This document shows positions 2,779-34,014 of a DNA stretch of 40,797 nucleotides, in pieces. Below the pieces are notes generated by a model. The model saw only the letters and a program-made list of their open reading frames with translations. It did not search any database and had not been told where the DNA came from. Numbering within the stretch: the stretch's first letter is position 1; each line of letters opens with the position of its first letter. Location: assembly GCA_019117545.1 (NCBI GenBank), contig DWZN01000194.1:1-40797 (forward strand). Direction: 5' to 3'. The translations under genes and the position numbers were made by a program. The DNA is from Candidatus Brevibacterium intestinavium. GTDB lineage: Bacteria > Actinomycetota > Actinomycetes > Actinomycetales > Brevibacteriaceae.

Positions 2779-3033
2779 ATGACCATTCCAGCTTCAAGCG
2801 GTTCATCAACGATCGAGCGCGAGCAGTCCGAGCAGCTTGTCGAGCCCGGAGACCACGAGCGATACAGCCATTACGCACCCAAGGACAAGATCATGGAGTC
2901 CATGGTGACGGGAACTCCGCTGATCGCCCTGTGCGGAAAGGTGTGGGTCCCGACCCGCGACCCCGAACGGTTCCCGATCTGCCCCCGGTGCAAAGAGATC
3001 TACGAGTCGATGTCCGAAGGACCGCAGGAGTAG
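2779..3033 (+). CDS. DUF3039 small cysteine-containing protein
   Basis: An 84-residue protein matching the actinobacterial DUF3039 family, whose function I do not know. Conserved features visible are HYAPKDKIMES near residues 31-41, LIALCGKVWVPTRDPERFPICP, and a CPRCKEIYE ending. Cys52, Cys68 and Cys71, with a nearby His, could bind a metal such as zinc; this is inference. The stop TAG is followed at once by the ATG of the helicase gene, so the two are co-transcribed and possibly translationally coupled. The start at 2779 follows a TACAAT box by six bases. The pairing with a nucleic-acid helicase hints at a nucleic-acid role. Confidence 0.85.
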   Translation: MTIPASSGSSTIEREQSEQLVEPGDHERYSHYAPKDKIMESMVTGTPLIALCGKVWVPTRDPERFPICPRCKEIYESMSEGPQE

Positions 3034-20081: not shown

Positions 20082-20705
20082 GTGCGCATCGTTCTTCTGG
20101 CCTCAGGCTCCGGTACCCTCACTCAGGCAGTCATCGACGCATTCGCCGCTGGAACGCGCGGAGTCGAGATCCTGGCAGTCGGCTCGGATTCGTCCACGGC
20201 CGGAGTCCTGGACCGGGCCCGCGCCCACGATGTTGCGACCTTCGTCGTCCGGCCGAAGGACTTCGCCGACCGACAGGCCTGGAACGAACAGCTGCGGCGG
20301 ACAGTGGCCGAACTCGGACCCGACTGGGTGGTGTCGGCCGGGTTCATGCGCATCCTCGGCCCGAGCTTCGTCGAGGCGTTCTCCAACCGGATCATCAACA
20401 CCCATCCGGCGCTTCTGCCGTCGTTCCCGGGAGCGCACGGAGTCCGCGACGCACTCGCCCACGGAGTGAAGCTGACCGGCGGGACCATCCACCTCGTCGA
20501 CACCGGCGTCGACACGGGCCCGATCATCACCCAGTACGCCGTGCCCATCGGCGATGACGACACCGAAGAGACCGTCCACGAACGCATCAAGGCCCTTGAG
20601 AGGGAAGAGCTCGTGCGTCTGCTGGCCCACCTCGCCCACTCCGATCTCGTCATCGACGGTCGGCATGTCCGCGGATATGCCGCCTCGGCGACGGCCGCAA
20701 ACTGA
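20082..20705 (+). CDS. purN: Phosphoribosylglycinamide formyltransferase
   Basis: Transfers formyl from 10-formyl-tetrahydrofolate to GAR, the third step of purine synthesis. The 207-residue protein matches the E. coli enzyme so closely in spacing that the catalytic residues carry the same numbers: Asn106, His108 ([15 protein letters not shown]) and Asp144 ([10 protein letters not shown]). The phosphate-binding opening [15 protein letters not shown] (SGSGTL) is present. Starts at GTG 20082, which fits both the -10 box and [11 protein letters not shown]. The gene is intact. purH follows after 49 bases with its own ribosome binding site, so they are probably co-transcribed. Confidence 0.97.
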
Positions 20706-20754: not shown

Positions 20755-22323
20755 GTGACAGGAACCCGCGCGATCAGGAGAGCGCTGATCAGCGTCTATG
20801 ACAAGACCGGGTTGGAGGACCTGGCTCGCGGACTCGACGCCGCCGGAGTCCAGATCGTGTCGACCGGTTCGACGGCAGCGAAGATCGCCGAGGCGGGGGC
20901 CGAGGTGACGAAGGTCGAAGACCTGACCGGGTTCCCCGAATGTCTCGAAGGGCGGGTCAAGACCCTCCACCCGCGGGTGCACGCGGGCATCCTCGCCGAC
21001 TCCCGCAAGCCGGACCATCGGAGTCAGCTCGACGAGCTCGGGATCGAGCCCTTCGACCTCGTCATCGTCAACCTCTATCCGTTCTCCGACACCGTCGCCA
21101 GCGGTGCGGGCTTCGACGACTGCGTGGAGCAGATCGACATCGGCGGACCCTCGATGGTCCGCGCCGCAGCGAAGAACCACCCGACCGTCGCGGTGGTCAC
21201 CGATCCGGCCGACTATTCGGCCGTGATCGAGGCCGCATCCGGCGAGGGCTTCGGTGTCGCCGCGCGGCGGGAGTTCGCCGCACGGGCCTTCGCCCACACC
21301 GCCGCCTATGACACCGCGGTGGCCTCATGGTTCGCCGCCGAACTCAGCGGTGCGGAAGACAGCGACGGCGACGAGGCCGACCAGCCGGCCTTCGCCGGAG
21401 TCACGGGAGAGAAGATCGCGGATCTGCGCTATGGGGAGAACCCGCATCAGGCCGCAGCGGTCTACTCCGACGGCACCCGCGGCATCGCCTGTGCCACGCT
21501 GCTGGGCGGCAAGGCGATGTCGTACAACAACTACACCGACACCGATGCCGCGATCCGTGCGGCCTTCGACTTCGACCAGCCGGCCGTGGCCATCGTCAAA
21601 CACGCGAACCCCTGCGGCATCGCCGTCGCCGACACCGCAGCCGCCGCGCACAAGGCCGCCCACGAATGCGATCCGCTCTCGGCATACGGCGGGGTGATCG
21701 CCACCAATCGTGAAGTCGACGCTGAACTGGCCGCATCGATCAAGCCGATCTTCACCGAGTGCCTGGCCGCACCCTCGTTCTCCGCCGAGGCTCTCGAGCT
21801 CCTGTCGACGAAGAAGAACCTGCGCCTGCTCGAACTCGGTGAGGTCGACTTCGCCGCGTCCGAGATCAAACCCATCACCGGCGGATTCCTCGTTCAGGAC
21901 CGCGATGCGTTCCAGGCCGAGGGCGACCGGCCGGAGAACTGGACCCTGGCCGCCGGGAAGCCCGCGACGCCGGAGATCCTCGCCGACCTCGAGTTCGCCT
22001 GGAAGGCCGGCCGGGCCGTGAAGTCCAACGCCATTCTGCTCGCCAAGGGCGGGGCCTCGGTCGGTGTGGGCATGGGATAGGTCAACCGAGTCGATTCGGC
22101 CAAGCTGGCCGTCGAGCGTGCCGGTGCCGAACGCGCCGCCGGTGCCGTCGGCGCCTCCGATGCCTTCTTCCCGTTCCCCGACGGTCTGCAGATCCTCATC
22201 GACGCCGGAGTCACCGCCGTGGTGCAGCCGGGCGGATCGATCCGCGATGACGAGGTCATTGCCGCCGCGCAGCAGGCCGGGATCACGATGTACCTGACCG
22301 GGAGCCGTCATTTCTTCCACTGA
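20755..22323 (+). pseudogene. purH: purH (AICAR transformylase/IMP cyclohydrolase) interrupted by in-frame TAG at 22078-22080
   Basis: Bifunctional last two steps to IMP. From GTG 20755 the frame encodes 441 residues, then TAG, then 80 more family-matching residues to TGA at 22321-22323; without the TAG the length would be 522, normal for PurH. The cyclohydrolase part is complete ([12 protein letters not shown], near 69-80; [11 protein letters not shown], 131-141). The transformylase part has [19 protein letters not shown], the catalytic KHANPCG (282-288) and KSNAIL. TAG replaces the Gln of the usual GxGQxxRVDS motif, a single C-to-T change. The lost tail holds [10 protein letters not shown] and QPGGSIRD, which contribute to substrate binding. 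No in-frame ATG or GTG lies just after the TAG. It could be a true mutation, a sequencing error, or a suppressed codon. Confidence 0.9.
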
Positions 22324-23164: not shown

Positions 23165-25594
23165 TCAGTTGAGCTTGTCGATCGGAGCGTAGCGCAGCAG
23201 CAGTCGCTTCGAACCGGCAGAACCGAAGTCGACCACAGCCACCGTCTTGTCCCCGACCCCGTTGACCTCGGTGACGGTGCCGAGGCCGAAGGACTCGTGG
23301 GAGACCTTCTCTCCGACCTCGACGGAGATGACCTCTCGGTTGGGACGGATCCGATTGGGGAAACCGGCCGCCGGTGCCGAGGAGCCGGCACCCGACCGCG
23401 AGGATGTGCCGCGGCCTGCACCGAATCCGCGTGAGGTTCCCGAATGTCCCGAGGAATAGCCGGACCCGAAGCCGCCGGAGAACCCACCGGAGAAGCTGCC
23501 TGTGTTCTCCCAGACGATGAGGTCCTCCGGGATCTCGGACAGGAACCGACTCGGCGGGTTGTATTGCGGTTGGCCCCACATGCTGCGGGTCTCGGCCCGG
23601 CTCAGCAGCAGCCTCTGGCGGGCGCGTGTGAGTCCGACATAGGCCAGGCGCCGTTCCTCGGACAGCTCCAGCGGGTTCTCGAACGACCGGGAATGCGGGA
23701 ATCCACCGTCCTCGAGTCCGGTGAGGAAGACGACGGGGAACTCCAGTCCTTTGGCCGTGTGCAGCGTCATGAGCGTGACCTGACCCAGCTCGGCATCGGG
23801 GATCTGATCGGTGTCCGAGGCCAGCGCCACCTGTTCGAGGAACTGGTCGATGGCTGCGACTCCGACGCCGGGAGCAGGGGGAGCTTCCTCCGCCGCGGCG
23901 GCGGAAGCGTCGTCCGTTTCCGTGTCGGTGTCCGCCTCGGATGTCGCGGCGGCCTCACGGGAGGCGACGAAGTCCTCGGCCACGGCGACGAGTTCGGCGA
24001 GGTTGTCCACCCGCGACTCGTCCTGCGGATCGGTGCTCTTCTGCAGCGATTCGAGATAGCCGGACTGTTCGAGGATCGCCTCGATCACCCGCGACAGCGG
24101 GGACGATTCGGCGGTGGAGGCGAGGTCCTGCATGAGATCGTAGAACTTCTGCACCGAGGTCAGAGCCCGAGAGCTCAGATGGGGAATCTCCTCGAGCCGT
24201 CCCAGGGCCGTATGGAAGCTGATGCCCTCCCGGTCGGCGAAGTCCGCGATGAGGCCTTCGGTGCGGTCGCCGATGGAGCGCTTGGGCACATTGAGGATGC
24301 GGCGCAGATTGACATCGTCATCGGGATTGGCCACCACCCGCAGATAGGCCAGGGCGTCCTTGATCTCCTTGCGTTCGTAGAAGCGGGTGCCGCCGACGAC
24401 CTTGTAGGGAATGCCCGAGCGGACCAGGGCGTCCTCGATGGCCCGCGACTGGGCATTCGTGCGATAGAAGACGGCGAAGTCGCCGTACCGGTAGTTCTCG
24501 TCGTCGATGAGATCGTCGATGCGGTCGACGATGAACCGTGCTTCGGCCTGCTCGTTCTCGGCCACCCAGCCGACGATCTGCTCACCCGTTCCCTCGGAGG
24601 TCCACAGCTTCTTCTCCCTGCGGTCCTCGTTGTGGGAGATGACGGCATTCGCCGCGTCGAGGATGTTCTGCGTCGAACGGTAGTTCTGCTCGAGGAGGAT
24701 GGTCTCCGCGTTCGGGAAGTCCTTCTCGAACTCGACGATATTGCGCACCGTGGCACCGCGGAAGGCATAGATCGACTGGTCGGCATCACCGACGACGGTG
24801 AGTTCGGCTCCCGACGCACCGCCGGCGCCGTCGCCGGCCAGGGCCTTGATCAGCGCGTACTGGGCCGGGTTCGTGTCCTGGTACTCATCGACGAGGATGT
24901 GCCGGAACCGCCGCCGGTAGGAATCGGCGACCTCGGGGAAGGCGCCGAAGAGGTGGACGGTCTCGGAGATGAGGTCGTCGAAGTCGAAGGCATTGGCCAG
25001 GCGCAGTCGGGAGGTGTAGCGCGTGAAGACGTCCGCGAGCACCTCGTCGGCGGGATTGTTCGGGCGGGGAGTGAAGTCGTCGGGGGTCTGCAGCTCGTTC
25101 TTGAGGTTCGAGATCCGATGCAGAATGGCTCGCGGGGTGTACTTCTTCGTGTCGAGGCCGAGTTCCTTGAGGATCTGCGAGACGAGGCGCTGGGCGTCCT
25201 GAGCGTCATAGATGGTGAAGTTCGTGTTCCGGCCCAGCACCCTCGCCTCCCGACGCAGGATCCGCACGCACGAGGAGTGGAACGTCGAGACCCACATGGC
25301 GCGGGAGGCCGGGCCGACGATGGAGGACACGCGTTCGGCCATCTCCCTGGCGGCCTTGTTCGTGAAGGTGATCGCCAGGACTTCGCCCGGATGAGCGCGC
25401 CCCGTGGCCAGGGCATAGGCGATGCGGCGGGTCAGAACAGTGGTCTTGCCCGACCCTGCTCCGGCGACGATGAGCAGCGGGGACCCGGTGTGCATCACGG
25501 CTTCGCGCTGTCGCGGGTTGAGCCCGGTGAGGAGTTCGGCCGCTCGGGGGTCGGCGCCGGCGGCATGGTCGAGGTGTTCAGATGCAGCAGTCAT
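23165..25594 (-). CDS. pcrA: ATP-dependent DNA helicase UvrD/PcrA
   Basis: A superfamily 1A 3'-5' helicase for repair and transcription-associated processes. From ATG 25594 it is 809 residues. In order: Q-motif LNPRQREAV, Walker A GAGSGKTT (45-52), motif II DEYQDTN, motif III GDADQSIYAFRGA, motif IV EQNYRST, motif V TLHTAKGLEFPVVF and motif VI YVGLTRARQRL. A Ser/Gly-rich linker (FSGGFSGGFGSGYSSG and similar) leads to a C-terminal Tudor-like domain, VSHESFGLGTVTEVNGVG, known in PcrA to bind RNA polymerase. An acidic insert (TSEADTDTETDDAS) lies in domain 2B. An upstream ATG at 25672 would add 26 residues and is not preferred. TATCGT at 25605-25610 suggests a very short leader. Confidence 0.95.
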   Translation of the reverse strand: MTAASEHLDHAAGADPRAAELLTGLNPRQREAVMHTGSPLLIVAGAGSGKTTVLTRRIAYALATGRAHPGEVLAITFTNKAAREMAERVSSIVGPASRAMWVSTFHSSCVRILRREARVLGRNTNFTIYDAQDAQRLVSQILKELGLDTKKYTPRAILHRISNLKNELQTPDDFTPRPNNPADEVLADVFTRYTSRLRLANAFDFDDLISETVHLFGAFPEVADSYRRRFRHILVDEYQDTNPAQYALIKALAGDGAGGASGAELTVVGDADQSIYAFRGATVRNIVEFEKDFPNAETILLEQNYRSTQNILDAANAVISHNEDRREKKLWTSEGTGEQIVGWVAENEQAEARFIVDRIDDLIDDENYRYGDFAVFYRTNAQSRAIEDALVRSGIPYKVVGGTRFYERKEIKDALAYLRVVANPDDDVNLRRILNVPKRSIGDRTEGLIADFADREGISFHTALGRLEEIPHLSSRALTSVQKFYDLMQDLASTAESSPLSRVIEAILEQSGYLESLQKSTDPQDESRVDNLAELVAVAEDFVASREAAATSEADTDTETDDASAAAAEEAPPAPGVGVAAIDQFLEQVALASDTDQIPDAELGQVTLMTLHTAKGLEFPVVFLTGLEDGGFPHSRSFENPLELSEERRLAYVGLTRARQRLLLSRAETRSMWGQPQYNPPSRFLSEIPEDLIVWENTGSFSGGFSGGFGSGYSSGHSGTSRGFGAGRGTSSRSGAGSSAPAAGFPNRIRPNREVISVEVGEKVSHESFGLGTVTEVNGVGDKTVAVVDFGSAGSKRLLLRYAPIDKLN

Positions 25595-25674
25595 GTCGTC
25601 CACAACGATACCGTCCGGGCCGGACACGGGACGATTCTGCCCGCGAGCGGAGCCGACGGCCCTCGCGGACACGG

Positions 25675-25722
25675 CTGACGGCGGCCCGGATACCGCGTGC
25701 TGGGCATCCGGGCCGCCGTCAG
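25675..25722 (-). terminator. Strong hairpin terminator after the four-helix membrane protein gene
   Basis: A perfect 17-bp stem (25675-25691 with 25706-25722) with a 14-base loop. It starts 15 bases after the stop of the minus-strand gene at 25737 and lies upstream of pcrA, so it separates the two transcripts. It is among the strongest hairpins in the window. Confidence 0.8.
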
Positions 25723-26208: not shown

Positions 26209-26280
26209 TCCGCCCTGGTGTAATGGCAGCACGCCGGCCTTTGGAGCCGTGCAGTATAGGTTCGAATCCTATGGGCGGAG
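26209..26280 (+). tRNA. tRNA-Gln (anticodon TTG)
   Basis: A 72-base cloverleaf folds. The acceptor stem TCCGCCC/GGGCGGA is perfect, with G as discriminator base. The D stem is GTGT/GCAC with one T-G pair. The anticodon loop CTTTGGA has TTG at 26241-26243. The T arm is ATAGG-TTCGAAT-CCTAT. The 27:43 pair in the anticodon stem is a C/T mismatch (26234 and 26250), slightly unusual. CCA is not encoded. The gene sits 33 bases before glmU. Anticodon UUG reads CAA and possibly CAG. Confidence 0.95.
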
Positions 26281-26312
26281 CTGGCCCCAACCGACATGCG
26301 AAGGATTCAACT

Positions 26313-28870: not shown

Positions 28871-29875
28871 ATGTCGTCACACGATTACAACCGGTACCGG
28901 GTCGACGTGGAGGGCGGGCAGCTGTCCGTCGGCGTGTGGGAGCCCGTGGCCTCCGGCCCCGGACACGTGCCCACGGTGTGCGTGATCCACGGGATCACCT
29001 CGAACCACCTCTTCTTCGCCGGTCTCGTCTCCGCCCTGCCCGGTGTGCGCGTCATCGGACCCGATCTGCGCGGACGCGCGGATTCGAGGACGCTGCCCGG
29101 ACCGTTCGGGATGAGCGCTCATGCCCGGGACGTGCGCGCCGCCGTCGATGCCTTCGCCGATGACGGACCGGTGACCCTGGTCGGCCATTCCATGGGCGGA
29201 TTCGTGGCGATGACCCTGGCCGCCGAGTCCCGGACCACCGGCGCCGAGGCGGCGCGAACCTTCCGCGGTCCCGTGCTCATCGACGGCGGCCTGCCTCTGC
29301 CTCTGGACGAGCCGAGCAGCGGGCACCCCGTCGACGACCTCAACGACGAGGACCTCGACACCGACGATCTCATCGCGGCCGTCCTCGGTCCCGCAGCGGA
29401 GAGGCTGTCGATGAGCTTCTCGACGGTCGAGGAGTATCTGGCGTTCTTCGCCGCACACCCCGCTTTCGTCGATGGTCTCGACACCGTGGCCACGGAGAGC
29501 TTCGTCTACGATCTGGCGGCCAAGGACGACCATTCCTTCCAGCCTTCCACCTCGGTCGAGGTGATGCAGGCCGACTCCGCGGATATGTACACCGGCGCGG
29601 ACTATCGTCGAGCGCTGGAGACGATCATGGCTGATCAGCCGTCCCAGTCCGAGGTCGTGTTCCTCTACGCCGAACGTGATCTCGTCGCCTCGGAACCGGG
29701 CCTCTATCCGCCCGAGCTCGTCGCCGACTACGCGCGGCAGTGGCCGCATCTGAGCGTCATCGACGTGCAGGGGACGAATCACTTCGACATCCTGCTGACC
29801 GAAACCGGAATCGATGCCTGCGCCGAGGCTGTCACGAGTCGACTTGGTGCCGTCGTCGACGGTGTCGTAGACTAG
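28871..29875 (+). CDS. Alpha/beta-fold hydrolase
   Basis: A 334-residue serine hydrolase. The oxyanion-hole motif HG (40-41, VIHGITSNHLFFAG) and the nucleophile elbow GHSMGG (105-110, Ser107) are clear. The catalytic acid is probably the Asp in YAERDLVASE, and the catalytic His the one in GTNHFDILL near 304. A cap region (about 155-255) gives substrate specificity and cannot be interpreted. It may be an esterase, lipase, epoxide hydrolase or haloperoxidase-like enzyme. ATG 28871 has GAAGGGA about nine bases upstream. It stands between two terminator-bounded units, and the rplY promoter candidate overlaps its last codons. The stop is TAG, evidence that TAG is normally read as stop. Confidence 0.88.
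   Translation: MSSHDYNRYRVDVEGGQLSVGVWEPVASGPGHVPTVCVIHGITSNHLFFAGLVSALPGVRVIGPDLRGRADSRTLPGPFGMSAHARDVRAAVDAFADDGPVTLVGHSMGGFVAMTLAAESRTTGAEAARTFRGPVLIDGGLPLPLDEPSSGHPVDDLNDEDLDTDDLIAAVLGPAAERLSMSFSTVEEYLAFFAAHPAFVDGLDTVATESFVYDLAAKDDHSFQPSTSVEVMQADSADMYTGADYRRALETIMADQPSQSEVVFLYAERDLVASEPGLYPPELVADYARQWPHLSVIDVQGTNHFDILLTETGIDACAEAVTSRLGAVVDGVVD
29844..29873 (+). promoter_or_regulatory. Putative rplY promoter inside the end of the hydrolase gene
   Basis: TTGGTG (29844-29849) and TAGACT (29868-29873) are separated by 18 bases. Transcription near 29880 would give a leader of about 145 bases before rplY. Confidence 0.42.
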
Positions 29876-32281: not shown

Positions 32282-32412
32282 GGCTCAATTGTGGGTGAAG
32301 AAGCTTGGAGAACCCCGAAAAATCGGGCCCGTCGGGCAAACGTGATCGTTCCGTTAGTCCCGTTATCTTCCCGATATGTTCTTCGCCGAACCGCCATTCA
32401 CCGCGTGCTGCT

Positions 32413-32427
32413 CGGGTCTCAGACCCG
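32413..32427 (-). terminator. Small hairpin after the arylsulfotransferase-like gene
   Basis: CGGGTC-TCA-GACCCG forms a 6-bp stem 19 bases after the stop of the minus-strand gene. Modest strength. Confidence 0.4.
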
Positions 32428-32445
32428 GGTGTCCCGCGATCCGCC

Positions 32446-33924
32446 TCAGCCGGACCGCGGACCCACCCGGGTCGAGGCGAGATGTCGGCCGTCGGCGTCG
32501 AGCGCCTCGACGACGATCTTGGAACCGTGCGGGGTGATGTCGGCCGCGGTCTCGAACCCGGTGCGCTCGACCTCGGTGTTCTCACTCAGATGGTCCTCGT
32601 CGTCACCGCTGAGGACCCGCCAGGAGGCGACCTCGGTGGCTCCGTTCCAGCTCATGTGGATGCGAGTCACTCCCGCTTGGGGTTCGGACTCGGTCGCGGT
32701 CGGCGGCGCGGTCGGCTGAGCGTGCCAGTCGAAGCGGTAGGCGCGGTAGTTCGACCCGCCGGTGAAGGTCATATCGGTCAGCAGCTTCCCGTCCTTCGTG
32801 TACTCCGAGACGAACGGCTGCGACCCCCAGCCGAGCACGACGTTGCCGTTGTCGAGCTCCTGGAAGTTCCCCTGACTGCCGGAGGACCGGTCATCGGGAG
32901 CGGGATACTCGGTGACCACCTCGGCGCGCTTGTCCTCCTCGTCGACGTCGAGCCGCAGCCCCCGCGTGTCGCCCAGCCTCGGGGCGGCATGGTTGTCGAA
33001 CAGCGTCAGGGTGCCGTCGGACCGACGCTGGGCATCGTGCTGCCAGGCGAAGGTCGCCCCCTCGCCCATCTCGAAGTCCGAGGCCTTGCCTCCCAGCACC
33101 CAGTTGAGATCGGCCGTCTTCCGATCGAGCTGGTAGACCGCATGCGTGTTGCGGGCCGAGACCAGCAGCGAGGAGCCGTCGTCGTCCTCACTGACCGAAT
33201 TCAGGTGGATGTAGTCGTAGGGTTCGTCCTCTGTGCCCTCACCGTCCTTGAACTCGGCTTCCGACTGTTCGACCGGGACATCGTCGAGGGAACGCCATTC
33301 GAAGAGCGGCTCGCCGGTGGCGATGTCGACTTCCTGAACCACTCCTTCCCACACCCAGCCGTCGGCGTCTCCGCCGACCTCGCTGAGGTCCGTCTGCGTC
33401 TTGACGTAGGAGAGCAGGAACATGGTGTCGTCATCGGTGATCGTCGTCTCGTGCAGATCCGAGCTGTCCTTGGGCAGTTCTCCGCCCATGCCCACCCGGG
33501 CGATCTCCTGGTACGAGTCATCGAGGATGACGACCTCGCCGGCCGTGTGCGGTGTCTCTGCCAGCCCCTCCCACCAGGTGAGCACGGGTTCGCCCTGATA
33601 CTCCTGGACGCGCAGATCCCACAGGGTCCCGGAGTTCTCGCGCACCCAGATGGGATCGCCCGCCGCGTCGAGGATGAGGCCTCCGACCCAGGACTTGTCA
33701 TCGGTCTTCGTCTGCCCCTTCGGGGCGAGGAACGTTTCGAGGTTCCCGTTGTCGTCGGGGAATTCACCGGAGTCGATGTCGACCTTCGGCGGACCGAGAT
33801 CGGGACGGGTGTGGAAGTCCCACCGCTCGGCGACTTCGATGTCATCGTCGGCTTCACCGGTGCAGCCCGTGAGCAGGAGCGCCGAGGCGGCCAACCCTGC
33901 AAGGACGGTTCTCATCTTGGACAT
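32446..33924 (-). CDS. Arylsulfotransferase-family (ASST-like) lipoprotein
   Basis: A 492-residue secreted protein. The N-terminus MSKMRTVLAGLAASALLLTGC is a lipoprotein signal peptide, with Cys21 to be lipidated. The mature part shows repeated beta-propeller blades and the ASST-type patterns DLHETTITDDDTMFLLSY, DYIHLNSVSEDDDGSSLLVSARNTHAVYQLDR, WVLGG, FAWQHDAQRRSDGTLTLFDN and NGNVVLGWGSQPFVSEY. The family includes sulfotransferases that act without PAPS, but many actinobacterial members have no known substrate, so activity is inferred only. ATG 33924 has GAGG about nine bases upstream; ATG 33915 is also possible, since TATATT lies just before. Transcribed alone and divergent from mfd. Confidence 0.8.
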   Translation of the reverse strand: MSKMRTVLAGLAASALLLTGCTGEADDDIEVAERWDFHTRPDLGPPKVDIDSGEFPDDNGNLETFLAPKGQTKTDDKSWVGGLILDAAGDPIWVRENSGTLWDLRVQEYQGEPVLTWWEGLAETPHTAGEVVILDDSYQEIARVGMGGELPKDSSDLHETTITDDDTMFLLSYVKTQTDLSEVGGDADGWVWEGVVQEVDIATGEPLFEWRSLDDVPVEQSEAEFKDGEGTEDEPYDYIHLNSVSEDDDGSSLLVSARNTHAVYQLDRKTADLNWVLGGKASDFEMGEGATFAWQHDAQRRSDGTLTLFDNHAAPRLGDTRGLRLDVDEEDKRAEVVTEYPAPDDRSSGSQGNFQELDNGNVVLGWGSQPFVSEYTKDGKLLTDMTFTGGSNYRAYRFDWHAQPTAPPTATESEPQAGVTRIHMSWNGATEVASWRVLSGDDEDHLSENTEVERTGFETAADITPHGSKIVVEALDADGRHLASTRVGPRSG

Positions 33925-34008
33925 GAATATATCCTCACACGTTTCCGTCGCTTCCGCTCGTCGGCCCACCGGTGTCCGGGGCGAACGCGGCGTGTCATCG
34001 GCGTGGCC

Positions 34009-34014
34009 TAGAAT
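34009..34014 (+). promoter_or_regulatory. Leaderless -10 for mfd
   Basis: TAGAAT ends six bases before GTG 34021. There is no ribosome binding site in the gap. No good -35 seen. Confidence 0.55.

Follow-up and report, generated by a model that had tools for sequence, protein, structure and literature searches.

A private in-frame amber codon in purH of a Brevibacterium draft genome, most likely a very recent nonsense allele or an assembly error

The window analysed here is the whole of one contig (C115; 40,797 bases) from a 3.33 Mb Brevibacterium assembly of 250 contigs, with a completeness of 98.44% and a contamination of 0.4%. It carries purH, the gene for the bifunctional AICAR transformylase/IMP cyclohydrolase, interrupted by a single amber codon. 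The features that matter for the argument are as follows.

20082 to 20705, plus strand: purN, intact and directly upstream of purH, above the TIGR00639 cut-off and free of stops.
20755 to 22323, plus strand: purH, interrupted, running from GTG to TGA and identified by profile and structure matches.
20755 to 22080, plus strand: the open part of purH, 441 codons ending in TAG, with the MGS-like cyclohydrolase region and PF01808 up to position 297 of 311.
22078 to 22080, plus strand: the in-frame TAG, codon 442 of 522 in purH, at a position held by glutamine in 110 of 110 relative loci.
22081 to 22323, plus strand: the conserved, undecayed tail of purH, 80 codons and the TGA, with a match to NF002049.
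26209 to 26281, plus strand: tRNA-Gln(UUG) from the tRNA search, with its ordinary anticodon and not an amber suppressor.

The GTG start of purH at 20755 is preceded by AAGGAGG; 441 sense codons lead to the TAG and a further 80 to the terminal TGA at 22321–22323. The best solved-structure match of the product is itself a PurH (3zzm), covering residues 3–522, and solved structures represent this family well. Family profiles continue across the stop: the 441-residue piece covers the NCBIfam models NF002049 and TIGR00355 up to profile position 428, and the 80-residue tail on its own matches NF002049 from position 430 to 510 (E value 1.9e-34). The frame together with these matches on both sides of the TAG confirms what an earlier note, made from the sequence, had described as an amber codon after 441 codons with an intact 80-codon tail, and we likewise saw no second lesion in the gene. 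The open 441-residue part still passes NF002049 (568.7 against a cut-off of 402) and falls below TIGR00355 (465 bits against 528). Its N-terminal, MGS-like cyclohydrolase domain is present (Pfam MGS at residues 20–132), but codon 442 closes the frame before it has run through both domains to the C-terminus. Translation would find no useful place to restart, since the next in-frame ATG, GTG or TTG is 47 codons past the TAG and the remainder from there is probably too short.

We compared the gene with its relatives at several depths. The genus set comprised 57 genomes including this one, and in all 56 others the PF01808 region is without a stop. Residue 442 is glutamine throughout the 110 relative loci (30 from the genus search and 80 from a wider contig search, with some species counted twice, so that not all are independent), and the codon is CAG in each of the 97 loci where it was read, the other 13 being opposite-strand matches that gave no codon reading. 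The proposal that a glutamine codon had become amber by one base is thus borne out, whereas the prospect that close relatives share the TAG, as recoding or suppression would lead one to expect, found no instance. The 14 best matches among named PurH loci are all from Brevibacterium, with identities of up to 89%. Across 396 genomes of the order, no purH stop appeared among the matches listed, which include neither the weaker matches nor this genome's own, and 12 of the 396 gave no purH match. Similarly, no 441-residue truncated PurH was represented among the 120 proteins listed from the 7,999 scored.

A protein search returned an intact 522-residue sister (P0002), the representative of a cluster of 31 member sequences, at a rounded identity of 100% to the purH product. 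Compared letter by letter the two differ at residues 1, 371, 442 and 503 only; the first difference reflects the reading of the GTG start as methionine, two are internal, and at residue 442 the sister has glutamine. A near-identical intact copy is what one would look for beside a recent nonsense allele. P0002 lies on another contig than the window, since its longest contig is only 17,733 bases against 40,797, and it could come from a related sample. The sequence past the stop is, moreover, better conserved than that before it, with a mean identity to 45 Brevibacterium loci of 86.7% compared with 79.3% upstream, so by this comparison the tail appears free of decay or relaxed selection. Taken together, the undecayed tail and P0002 imply that the change is either very recent or not real. 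Whatever its cause, it is very probably private to this genome and nearly brand new.

On balance we favour the view that the private TAG is a real one-base nonsense mutation and makes purH a very recent loss-of-function allele. We give this a probability of about one half, a figure which, like our grading of the two alternatives taken up next, is a judgement and was not computed. If the TAG is real, RF1 would terminate translation after 441 residues and the transformylase domain, deprived of its last 80, should lose its activity. The AICAR contacts of the C-terminal transformylase domain are reported to include Arg 589 (PMC3261824 numbering) and, because human and avian PurH chains end at 592–593 residues, the equivalent residue would, anchoring the chains at their ends, fall within the lost tail. 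AICAR would then be left unformylated, and the strain should be a purine auxotroph reliant on outside purines through salvage. Cyclohydrolase activity could persist, since each half of avian PurH is described as catalysing its own step in isolation (PMC3261824), although the pathway would still be blocked for want of the transformylase. In Salmonella, purH deletions are reported to give purine and thiamine auxotrophs that accumulate AICAR (PMC5798407). Uptake and salvage of purines are plausible because the assembly has three matches to PF00860 (xanthine/uracil permease) and eight to PF00156 (phosphoribosyltransferase fold); the window's PRPP synthetase is among these eight, so not all of them are salvage enzymes.

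Against a real allele, a cell without a working purH should fare poorly in nature unless purines are supplied, and in a draft of this kind a single false base in the consensus would explain the TAG almost as economically as a true mutation. On the emergence of such mutants, adenine cross-feeding is reported not to have selected purine auxotrophs in Escherichia coli PFM2, although monoculture yielded four, and E. coli MG1655 acquired pur mutations at low frequency, which the authors put down to adenine toxicity (PMC13274399).

The closest competitor, which we regard as a serious possibility falling short of an even chance, is that the organism's purH is intact and that the TAG arose in sequencing or consensus calling, or was taken by the assembler from a minority strain. 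Only a single base is affected in a gene that is otherwise complete, the sequence beyond it is undecayed and a near-identical intact version exists on another contig, all of which would suit an error. The assembly, too, has the look of a metagenome bin, as suggested by its 250 contigs, by the absence of any shorter than 2,679 bases among 74 of them, and by the lack of a 16S match, albeit in a weak search (26 of 84 candidates scored) that found 16S in 9 of 14 control genomes.

Several comparisons bear on whether this assembly is error-rich in general. A codon-usage (coding-potential) scan of 518,955 bases, the window among them, looked for stops with 40 codons of coding character on either side and returned seven. 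In five cases a start codon follows within the next 9 codons, and these we treated as junctions between genes; the other two, the purH TAG and L184:5589, have no start within 20 codons. The latter was rejected as a mid-gene stop: an aldo/keto reductase reaches its normal end there, the PF00248 match extending as far as position 285 of 291, and a frame on the minus strand follows. The same scan applied to 400,000 bases of the complete relative (G003) gave six stops, each with a start no more than 6 codons on, so that none was flagged. The scan is not exhaustive, its strict form catching 1,399 of 4,593 test codons and its loose form 3,461. Alignment to the window of predicted frames from the same relative gave a concordant picture. 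Of 59 matching frames, 23 had a stop inside the alignment, many of these being shadow frames; a coding-potential filter, which also removed the gene ending at 3033 that aligns without a stop, left 30 comparisons. Stops remained in five of these, four of them upstream of the window gene's own start (697, 28850, 30869 and 34173), so that purH alone is cut mid-gene and the other 29 frames are not. None of the 30 gave a frameshift-like second alignment piece. With no other convincing mid-gene stop in the scan and no frameshift in the compared frames, the draft is not generally error-rich, nor did the sample or these frames show a decaying genome; this counts against an error, though a single wrong base is possible.

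That the TAG is real but read through, by a suppressor tRNA or leaky decoding that still yields full-length PurH, we consider very unlikely. The tail has indeed been kept intact, but an intact tail is equally expected of a brand-new change, and the TAG stands at codon 442 in no relative examined. Among 42 tRNA hits in the assembly (Rfam), for 40 of which ARAGORN gave the anticodon and two of which, uncalled by ARAGORN, are partial genes cut at contig ends (L070 and L071) and read by eye as Arg(CCG) and Arg(TCT), none has a CUA anticodon, so the suppressor tRNA that the earlier note envisaged did not turn up. The other tRNAs that are one step from a suppressor, Gln(CUG), Tyr(GUA), Trp(CCA), Leu(CAA), Lys(CUU) and Glu(CUC), are present with normal anticodons. 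The complete relative has 46 tRNA hits, its extra anticodons being Gly(TCC), Pro(TGG), Leu(TAG) and Ser(CGA); the corresponding Gly(UCC), Pro(UGG), Leu(UAG) and Ser(CGA) genes were not found in the assembly. Ser(CGA) is of interest as a possible parent, being one base from CUA; when the relative's Ser(CGA) region served as a DNA query, the matches in the assembly were confined to Ser(TGA) and Ser(GCT). A suppressor derived from it is conceivable because its gene was not found in the assembly, but nothing points to one.

Nor is TAG globally reassigned. A recoded stop would be expected to go unused as a terminator elsewhere or to accompany the loss of RF1; here RF1 is present and without stops, and the ends of 344 sampled coding-like reading frames comprise 308 TGA, 30 TAG and 6 TAA, so that, besides the one in purH, TAG terminates 29 further frames. 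The ordinary use of TAG nearby, also asserted before, holds: the ends at 3031–3033 and 29873–29875 coincide with the ends of proteins of the complete relative, the names DUF3039 and hydrolase being those of the earlier reading of the sequence. No pyrrolysine synthetase (PylS) was found in the assembly, by a family search that exceeded its cut-off in 1 of 14 controls. Of the possibilities first named for the change, that it is very recent, suppressed or an error, the first gains from the near-identical intact sister, while suppression loses ground to the 42 tRNA hits without a CUA anticodon, even though the Ser(CGA) gene was not found. Still less probable is a useful form of suppression, perhaps by a derivative of tRNA-Ser(CGA), or of readthrough, whereby full-length PurH and a cyclohydrolase-type product of 441 residues would come from one gene.

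Least credible of all is that the 441-residue protein is retained because it has a separate function, such as that of an enzyme with cyclohydrolase activity only. Its MGS-like N-terminal domain is complete and the avian halves are each reported active in isolation (PMC3261824), but the change is new and private, PF01808 is cut internally at position 297 of 311 and not at the domain border, and a profile search of the assembly found no second PF01808 (purH-type) gene beside the TAG-bearing one, hence no second purH of the kind that the earlier note had proposed to look for.

Set against known systems, the gene is a bacterial bifunctional PurH (NF002049/TIGR00355; Pfam MGS and AICARFT_IMPCHas) in whole length, domain order and place after purN, from which it differs by one in-frame TAG at codon 442. 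It resembles a recent nonsense allele of a biosynthetic gene, a pseudogene in the making, in its single stop, in having no other visible lesion and in its intact sister protein; it differs from that class in that the TAG is known from a draft assembly alone and may be an error. With amber suppression or stop-codon recoding it shares a TAG at a conserved glutamine and a conserved tail, but here no suppressor tRNA was found, no relative examined has the TAG and other genes end normally with it. A recent loss-of-function mutation or an assembly error is therefore most likely, and a new decoding trick very unlikely. The titles and abstract openings of the literature searched contain no account of a purH nonsense case like this one, or of a Brevibacterium purine auxotroph. 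If real, the allele would mark a natural purine auxotroph that has only just begun to lose a core biosynthetic gene, and would point to a supply of purines where the organism lives; if an error, the case illustrates how one consensus base in a draft can imitate the loss of a core pathway. Either way, nothing out of the ordinary has happened to a known gene, and what is known of purH or of decoding is unchanged.

Two other features of the window deserve brief mention. Long open frames on the plus strand at 23444–25678, without a match in NCBIfam or Pfam, and at 32305–34011 lie opposite minus-strand frames of stronger coding composition, pcrA (23165–25672) and 32446–33969 respectively, and are probably by-products of high GC. 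The tRNA-Gln(UUG) gene lies about 4 kb 3′ of purH, between the helicase gene pcrA on the minus strand and glmU, and the complete relative has tRNA-Gln(UUG) at a matching distance, about 4 kb past its own purH (L267).
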